The notes under the pieces were generated by a model. That model was not told the DNA's origin. It made no database searches and saw nothing but the letters and a program-made list of their open reading frames with translations. Of a DNA stretch of 64,000 bases, positions 58,733 through 60,932 are shown in pieces. The stretch is from Candidatus Planktophila sp. GTDB lineage: Bacteria > Actinomycetota > Actinomycetes > Nanopelagicales > Nanopelagicaceae. The stretch's first letter is position 1. Every line of letters begins with the position of its first letter. The position numbers and the translations under genes were made by a program. The stretch spans positions 1-64,000 of the forward strand of contig JAIOWZ010000003.1 in assembly GCA_021741905.1 (NCBI GenBank). The letters are read 5' to 3'.

Positions 58733-60010
58733 TTACAATGTTTCTGACTTGAAAGTTACTGGTGACTTTTCTCTGTGATCATGTCGCCAATTTTCAGGTA
58801 ATAAGTGATCGAGCACGTCATCAACTGTGACCGCCCCAAGTAAACGCTCATTGACATCTACTACTGGCAAGGAAAGCATGTTGTAACTAGCCAAATACGA
58901 GGAAACTTCATGCAAAGTTGAATCTGGGTTAACGCCCTTTGCATCGTTATCAACGATTGAACCTAACAATGTTGCAGGCGGTTCGCGTAGCAAACGCTGG
59001 TAATGAACAACTCCAATAAAGCGGCCGGTAGGCGTTTCAACAGGTTGACGACAAATATAGATTTGCGAAGCAAGAGCAGGTGAAATTTCTTTTTGGCGGA
59101 CCGCAGCTAATGCATCTGCAACTGTTGAATCGGCGGTTAGAACAATTGGTTCAGTCGTCATCATTCCACCTGCTGAATAATCTTCGTAGTTCATCAAACG
59201 CAAAACATCTTCTGCATCCTCAGGCTCCATTAATTCTAGAAGCGCATTGGCTCGCTCTTCGCCTATCTCTCGAAGTAAGTCGGCAGCATCATCTGGATCC
59301 ATTTCACCCAGTACATCTGCAGCGCGTTCACCTTCAAGTTCGGCTAACAGGGCAACTCGATCTGTCTCATCCATCTCTTCAAGCACATCGGCAAGGCGTT
59401 CATCATCAAGTGCGATTGCAACTTCGACACGACGTTTAGGTGCAAGGTCTTGCAATACAGCTGCAAGGTCAGCAGCGCGTAGGTTGGCAAGTGTTGTCAT
59501 CAGATTTGCGACACCTTGATTTTGTTCGGTCGTTGCAAAACCTGTGACTTCTTCCCAGGCAACAGTCGATGTGGCACCTTTGCGGCGTAAGCCTCGACCA
59601 CGACGCATGATATGAACGCGGTTGATGAACCAATCACCTGTTCGCGTTTCTTCCATCCCCATGTCTTCGACAACAACGGCTTCACCAGATTCAATTAATG
59701 TAATTGAACGATCTAGCATTTCTCCAAGAACCAGCACTTCACCTGGACGTGTATCGAAACGGCGCATGTTGAGTAATCCAGTGATTACAACCGCACCACT
59801 TTCAATAGAAGTTACTCGGGTAATCGGCACAAAGACTCGACGGCGCAATGGCACTTCAACAACTAGTCCAAGAATTCTCGGTGGTTGATTAGTCGAACGA
59901 AGGGTCGCGACAGCATCTCGCACCTTTCCTACGGGATCACCATTTGGGTCAAAGACCGCGGTACCTGCAAGACGGGCGAGAAATACTCGGTTTAAGAGAT
60001 TGCCGCTCAT
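58733..60010 (-). CDS. MgtE N-terminal domain and CBS-pair protein without membrane part
   Basis: A soluble 425-aa protein. An N-terminal PRC-barrel-like region (about 5-100, VFDPNGDPVGKVRDAV) is followed by superhelical MgtE_N repeats with acidic turns (LADVLEEMDETDRVALLAEL, AADVLGEMDPDDAADLL). Two CBS domains follow (about 270-405). It lacks the MgtE membrane channel, so it cannot be a transporter alone and is probably a Mg2+- or nucleotide-responsive regulator. ATG 60010 is used, since TACCCT lies 6 nt upstream. The track start at 60040 is in the next gene's 5' end. Confidence 0.9.
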   Translation of the reverse strand: MSGNLLNRVFLARLAGTAVFDPNGDPVGKVRDAVATLRSTNQPPRILGLVVEVPLRRRVFVPITRVTSIESGAVVITGLLNMRRFDTRPGEVLVLGEMLDRSITLIESGEAVVVEDMGMEETRTGDWFINRVHIMRRGRGLRRKGATSTVAWEEVTGFATTEQNQGVANLMTTLANLRAADLAAVLQDLAPKRRVEVAIALDDERLADVLEEMDETDRVALLAELEGERAADVLGEMDPDDAADLLREIGEERANALLELMEPEDAEDVLRLMNYEDYSAGGMMTTEPIVLTADSTVADALAAVRQKEISPALASQIYICRQPVETPTGRFIGVVHYQRLLREPPATLLGSIVDNDAKGVNPDSTLHEVSSYLASYNMLSLPVVDVNERLLGAVTVDDVLDHLLPENWRHDHREKSPVTFKSETL

Positions 60011-60032
60011 GGGATAAGGGTACCTTTCTCTT
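60011..60032. promoter_or_regulatory. 22-bp symmetric divergent promoter core (MgtE_N/CBS gene / EamA gene)
   Basis: Plus strand: TACCTT (60021-60026) then 6 nt and the EamA ATG. Minus strand: TACCCT (60017-60022) then 6 nt and the MgtE_N/CBS ATG. The two -10 boxes share the palindrome GGTACC, so one DNA site can point polymerase either way. Neither gene has a Shine-Dalgarno. Confidence 0.55.
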
Positions 60033-60932
60033 ATGAGCACTGGCGAATCATTAAATATTGATCAACACACAGCCATGCCTGCACGACCAGATTTGATTCG
60101 TTTAGGAATCGGAATCATTGGAATTGGAACATCTGGTCCATTAATCGCGATGAGCACGATGCCTGTACTGACATTGATCTTTTGGAGAAATCTTGGCGGA
60201 TCACTACTGACTTTGCCCTTTGCATTGCGCCATTCCCGTGACAAAGCTGGCATGAAGTGGGCAGTAATTGCCGGAGTCGTATTAGCACTTCACTTTGTTG
60301 GATTCTTCTTAGCAATGAGAATGACAACAGTTGCGGCCGGAACTGCCTTAGTTGCGCTGCAACCTATTTTTGCTGCTCTGTTTGTAAAGCTTTCAGGTGG
60401 TCATATTCCATCAACGGCCTGGCTTGGAATGATTGTTAGTTTTGTTGGTGTTGTGCTTGTTTCAGGTGTGGATCTTCAAATTTCAGTCAAGTCATTTTTA
60501 GGAGACCTTGCTGCTCTTATTTCTGCAGCACTTGCAGCTGCATACATAATTGCGGGTTCAAAAGCGCAAAGAACTCTTGAAACCACAACCTATACAACTA
60601 TTTGCTATTTCGTGTGTTCGATAACTGCACTGCCGATGGCATTGATTGCAGGAAATCAGATATTTTCTTTTAGTGCAAAGGAGTGGTGGATTCTTTTGGG
60701 TCTCATTCTCGGAGCACAACTGCTAGGCCATTCAATGTTTAATTCAGTTTTAAAGCGAGTTTCTCCAGCAATTGTTTCCCTCATTGTTTTCTTTGAAGTT
60801 CCAGTCAGCGCTATCCTTGCAGCATGGTGGCTAGATCAACGACCTCCACTCGGAATCATTCCAGGCATAGTGTTGATCTTGGCAGGTTGCATATTGTTGG
60901 TAACACGCACGCGAGGATCTTCCAATGATTGA
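60033..60932 (+). CDS. EamA/DMT-family transporter
   Basis: Integral membrane protein of 299 aa with ten predicted helices in two EamA repeats (about 20-145 and 160-290). Typical features are the FWRNLGG segment near the end of helix 2, VAAGTALVALQPIFAALFV, and SPAIVSLIVFFEVPVSAILA in the second half. Members export metabolites or amino acids; the substrate is unknown. Its end overlaps the PHP gene by 8 bp. Confidence 0.9.
   Translation: MSTGESLNIDQHTAMPARPDLIRLGIGIIGIGTSGPLIAMSTMPVLTLIFWRNLGGSLLTLPFALRHSRDKAGMKWAVIAGVVLALHFVGFFLAMRMTTVAAGTALVALQPIFAALFVKLSGGHIPSTAWLGMIVSFVGVVLVSGVDLQISVKSFLGDLAALISAALAAAYIIAGSKAQRTLETTTYTTICYFVCSITALPMALIAGNQIFSFSAKEWWILLGLILGAQLLGHSMFNSVLKRVSPAIVSLIVFFEVPVSAILAAWWLDQRPPLGIIPGIVLILAGCILLVTRTRGSSND

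Follow-up and report, generated by a model that had tools for sequence, protein, structure and literature searches.

Divergent transcription from overlapping -10 elements is established in E. coli and has been described for all prokaryotes (PMC12825309, PMC10268837). The divergent transcription start sites of the bidirectional promoters of Warman et al. lie 7-25 bp apart and the preferred distances are 18, 10 and 23 bp (PMC12825309). The word 'leaderless' does not occur in PMC12825309 or PMC10268837. Leaderless genes of M. tuberculosis have a TANNNT hexamer without a conserved -35 element and are transcribed from the start codon, and a divergent leaderless pair, prpD/Rv1129c, is reported along with 'closely juxtaposed divergent promoters' (PMC3898074). 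Shared -10 boxes are not described in the available part of that source.

The site described here appears to combine both known kinds, as a bidirectional promoter of the 23-bp class for two predicted leaderless genes. It resembles the promoters of Warman et al. (PMC12825309, PMC10268837) in its opposed -10 elements which share bases, in the 23-bp separation of start sites implied by its ATG positions, and in being a short symmetric sequence potentially able to drive both directions. Unlike those promoters, it is predicted to give leaderless mRNAs in both directions, each from a conserved gene, and its core fills the whole gap between the start codons. The predicted TANNNT leaderless geometry is that of the M. 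tuberculosis genes, but the two boxes here physically share a TA, an arrangement not found in the available part of PMC3898074. A literature search which covered few subscription journals returned no paper on a bidirectional promoter combined with two leaderless genes, and none on leaderless genes in Nanopelagicales.

The 22-bp gap and its flanking genes

The window, the whole stretch of DNA that was analysed, is 64,000 nucleotides long and belongs to an actinobacterium with a small genome (1.25 Mb, 44 contigs). The nearest loci are from freshwater actinobacterial MAGs and genomes, several of which are labelled Planktophila or Nanopelagicaceae. The gap has the sequence GGGATAAGGGTACCTTTCTCTT and is bounded by two divergent start codons, a minus-strand ATG at 60010-60008 and a plus-strand ATG at 60033-60035. 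The features are as follows.

58733 to 60010, minus strand: gene for a PRC-barrel, MgtE_N and CBS protein (425 aa), predicted leaderless; followed by a DUF1003 gene
60011 to 60032, no strand: whole intergenic region between the two divergent genes, 22 bp, length kept in 21 of 21 clade members
60011 to 60016, minus strand: 6-nt spacer on the MgtE_N/CBS side, sequence variable and length fixed in the clade comparison
60017 to 60022, minus strand: TACCCT, putative -10 hexamer of the MgtE_N/CBS gene, 6 nt before the ATG at 60010, invariant in 21 genomes
60017 to 60027, no strand: invariant core AGGGTACCTTT, zero changes in 21 genomes
60021 to 60022, no strand: TA step common to both hexamers, positions -12 and -11 of each, from geometry and invariance
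60021 to 60026, plus strand: TACCTT, putative -10 hexamer of the EamA gene, 6 nt before the ATG at 60033, invariant in 21 genomes and matching a genome-wide TANNNT spike at spacing 6
60027 to 60032, plus strand: 6-nt spacer on the EamA side, most positions variable and length fixed in the clade comparison
60033 to 60932, plus strand: EamA-family transporter gene (299 aa), predicted leaderless; followed with a small overlap by a PHP-domain gene

This gap is very probably a bidirectional promoter reduced to its core, with both mRNAs leaderless and predicted start sites 23 bp apart. TACCTT and TACCCT, the latter read from 60022 down to 60017, both fit TANNNT. The preliminary description placed each hexamer exactly 6 nt from its own ATG, and the coordinates bear this out on both strands. 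It also had the hexamers overlapping on GGTACC; the overlap does fall inside GGTACC, but only the TA at 60021-60022 is shared. Opposed -10 elements of bidirectional promoters overlap at key positions and this TA is such an overlap. The description of the gap as almost perfectly symmetric was overstated. Over the whole gap 7 of 11 base pairs are symmetric, for which the binomial P in a random 22-mer is about 0.008; the central 12 bp have 5 of 6, and GGTACC itself is perfect.

No usable Shine-Dalgarno sequence was found at normal spacing before either ATG. AAGGG and AAAGG occur at symmetric positions about 12 nt before each ATG. Upstream EamA starts are excluded by in-frame stops within the gap in 18 of the 21 clade genomes, and upstream MgtE-type starts in 10 of them. 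Lack of a usable ribosome site and a fixed start codon are features of leaderless genes.

Leaderless signature and recurrence of the geometry

Genes were called in 1.2 Mb of the closed chromosome of a relative, G051, and in about 0.37 Mb of the window's own genome. Starts were picked only by codon usage and start-codon type. TANNNT was found 6 nt before the ATG in 29% (G051) and 39% (own genome) of divergent ATG genes, with a smaller peak at 7 nt and about 0-4% at most other spacings. Leaderless genes with TANNNT at 6 nt are ordinary in these genomes, as the genome-wide spike at that spacing demonstrates. Both genes at the gap have a TANNNT within the leaderless range of about 6-7 nt before the start, where the motif stands above background. 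An SD-like motif was present in 18-38% of genes in G051 and the own genome.

The exactly centred pattern ANNNTANNNT occurs in 0.095% of random genomic 22-mers. It was present in all five divergent gaps of exactly 22 bp (two in G051, three in the own genome), each with -10 boxes at spacings 6/6. The five gaps represent three independent gene pairs, and two of the gaps were preselected, namely the window itself and L134, which was chosen for its pattern match; the other three were not. A peak in gap length at exactly 22 bp was not demonstrable with the few divergent pairs of G051 and the own genome. The centred pattern between CAT and ATG had matches in 63 of 101 family genomes. TA-centred and AT-centred matches were classified rather than counted raw because most AT-centred matches lie inside genes. 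Long coding-like divergent ORFs flanked 21 of 40 TA-centred hits by reading of the scores (13 of 40 by the strict label), compared to at most 1 of 20 AT-centred control hits (strict, 0 of 20). A stricter pattern, which misses the window itself (TACCTTT, not TANNCTT), had matches in 9 of 151 genomes compared to one genome for the reversed pattern.

The same geometry was found at unrelated gene pairs. These were aldehyde dehydrogenase/hydrolase in three genera, MFS transporter/tRNA-editing protein, DUF554/unknown, FAD oxidoreductase/choline kinase-like, SpoU methylase/unknown and glgA-like/glgC-like. The last pair lies head to head with 22-bp shared -10 geometry in L187 and L189. A metF/polyprenyl synthetase pair with GTG/GTG starts has a 22-bp gap with a GGTACC centre (L126:14726-14749; G051:C1:889485-889508). 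The other head-to-head pairs of the family are like the window in having a 22-bp gap with centred ANNNTANNNT, but differ from it in their genes and, apart from the pattern, mostly in core sequence.

Near-perfect 28-bp palindromes which include both start codons (e.g., CATGGGTGAAGGCTAACCTTCACCCATG) were seen at G079:C1:421249-421276 and G010:C38:20657-20684. The minus-strand ORF at the G079 palindrome is just 56 aa and not coding-like, and this palindrome is possibly an operator or a one-way site.

At G051:C1:737839-737856 an identical CATGGGATAAGGGTACCTTT promoter stands before a single leaderless gene, and on the other side no gene starts at the corresponding position. The identical AAGGGTACCTTT thus serves one gene only in G051 (G051:737850), so a palindrome alone proves nothing. 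The shared-promoter reading appears to be carried by geometry and conservation, not by the palindrome.

Conservation and origin of the shared core

The gap was 22 bp in 21 of 21 clade genomes (20 loci and the window). Positions 60017-60027, the union of both hexamers and one T, had 0 changes in the 21 genomes, whereas 140 four-fold sites in the adjoining gene changed 6.1 times on average. The EamA-private bases 60023-60027 were among those unchanged. Bases that belong to only one of the hexamers are as frozen on the one side as on the other, and this is the chief evidence for a role of both directions. The check named in advance, whether relatives conserve the core and both 6-nt spacings, came out positive for every one of the 21 genomes of one clade. 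Together with the genome-wide TANNNT at 6 nt this conservation supports the original suggestion that one -10 site may serve two leaderless genes.

Invariance extends to the N positions of both hexamers, beyond what TANNNT alone requires, and a bound protein, for example, may impose a further constraint. On these grounds the invariant imperfect palindrome of 11-12 bp could be mainly an operator for a regulator dimer, with the -10 overlap incidental; all core bases are frozen, N positions included, and 5 of 6 pairs are symmetric, as an operator would have it. This is unlikely. The invariant stretch matches the combined extent of the two hexamers, TAC[CT]CT persists before the MgtE-type gene in sister loci that have no such palindrome, and no regulator gene was found next to the gap. 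An operator would be expected to recur at regulated promoters independently of the -10 position. Several close copies of the core lie near gene starts at the place of a -10 element, with the centre 10-12 bp away from the start, most of the others are inside genes, and two lie elsewhere upstream of genes.

The shared core was compared with its wider family. An EamA homolog is divergent to the MgtE-type gene at 74 of 78 family loci, and in nearly all of the 74 it has a TANNNT 6-7 nt before a start codon. Family gaps other than 22 bp are mostly 29-74 bp with two separate -10 boxes. TAC[CT]CT is kept 6 nt before the MgtE-type gene in many sister loci. Class-wide, 23 of 24 MgtE-type homologs have a TANNNT 6-8 nt before a possible start, and EamA, where the locus has it, aligns at a distance of 600-1000 bp, so leaderless expression of the MgtE-type gene looks older.

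A promoter in the MgtE direction alone, with EamA driven from inside the MgtE-type gene and its hexamer a by-product of symmetry, would agree with the class-wide retention of that leaderless -10 element and with the single gene served by the same core at G051:737850. It would leave the frozen EamA-private bases unaccounted for, however, and EamA retains a TANNNT of its own at 6-7 nt in loci with separated promoters, and its start is fixed by the in-frame gap stop. This makes a one-way promoter very improbable.

The tree of the MgtE-type protein gave the 22-bp state a single origin with support of 99. The shared core arose once, as other family members have the same divergent genes with separate -10 boxes. 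Three loci have 29-bp gaps, with the sequence GGGGTAAGGGTATCGGCTAGGTTTGTCTC (L033) or similar. Removal of the 7 bp between the two TAs of these gaps gives a 22-bp gap with both spacings intact. Two separate leaderless promoters may therefore have merged, for example by loss of the 7 bp between the TA steps. The tree and the 29-bp-gap relatives suggest that the direction of change was from two promoters to a shared core.

In a clade with 47-bp gaps (L019, L023, L024, L031, L051, L052 and L053) the old leaderless start of the MgtE-type gene opens a 6-codon mini-ORF. This encodes MKGGQK, MKGGRK or MKGGPK before its stop and contains an AGGGAGG ribosome site, and its TGA overlaps the ATG of the MgtE-type gene. 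The gene in this clade has apparently turned from leaderless to coupled and SD-led.

The proposal that AAGGG and AAAGG are ribosome sites and that transcripts begin inside the opposing genes has in its favor the symmetric placing of these motifs and the share of SD-like motifs in these genomes, but it is scarcely credible given that a spacing of about 12 nt is at the edge of the workable range, that in a clade with 41-bp gaps no purine run precedes the start of the MgtE-type gene and TACTCT alone is retained, that the invariance of TACC and CTT is left unexplained, and that the clade which did become SD-led has a proper AGGGAGG and a moved start.

Synonymous sites in the first ~11 codons of the MgtE-type gene (59980-60010 in the window) were strongly constrained in both leaderless clades tested (1.0 compared to 5.2 changes and 0.6 compared to 3.8). 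No such constraint was seen in the SD-led gap-47 clade (1.8 compared to 1.9). The constraint does not count as evidence of a -35 element in these codons, since it is also present in the gap-41 clade, where the EamA promoter is further away.

Proposed mechanism and significance

The geometry, the genome-wide leaderless signature, the conservation and the single origin were computed directly. In the mechanism proposed for the shared promoter, RNA polymerase, presumably with the housekeeping sigma factor, would bind in either of two opposite orientations, by way of TACCTT or TACCCT. The hexamers overlap by the central TA, and the -12T of one promoter would be paired with the -11A of the other. 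Transcription would start at or beside the A of each ATG, at sites 23 bp apart. With both mRNAs leaderless, no 5' UTR or extra intergenic DNA would be needed and the promoter core would be the whole intergenic region. Any -35 or upstream contacts would lie within the first codons of the opposing gene. The two orientations probably exclude each other sterically, although the genes would not necessarily be coupled by this when firing is infrequent.

If this reading is true, a natural intergenic region between two divergent genes could hardly be smaller than this gap. The gap would also provide evolutionary evidence that a symmetric promoter works and is under selection in both orientations, and its relatives display the two-promoter arrangement. 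As both genes would be leaderless, start sites could be read from the sequence, and comparative genomics could then test how bidirectional promoters evolve and how general they are in organisms that are difficult to culture. It seems reasonably likely that streamlined leaderless actinobacteria have repeatedly fused two promoters into a 22-bp shared core. Gene pairs, several of them conserved across species, would then depend on one TA step, their spacing would read out the geometry of the bidirectional promoter, and selection would act on both directions at once.
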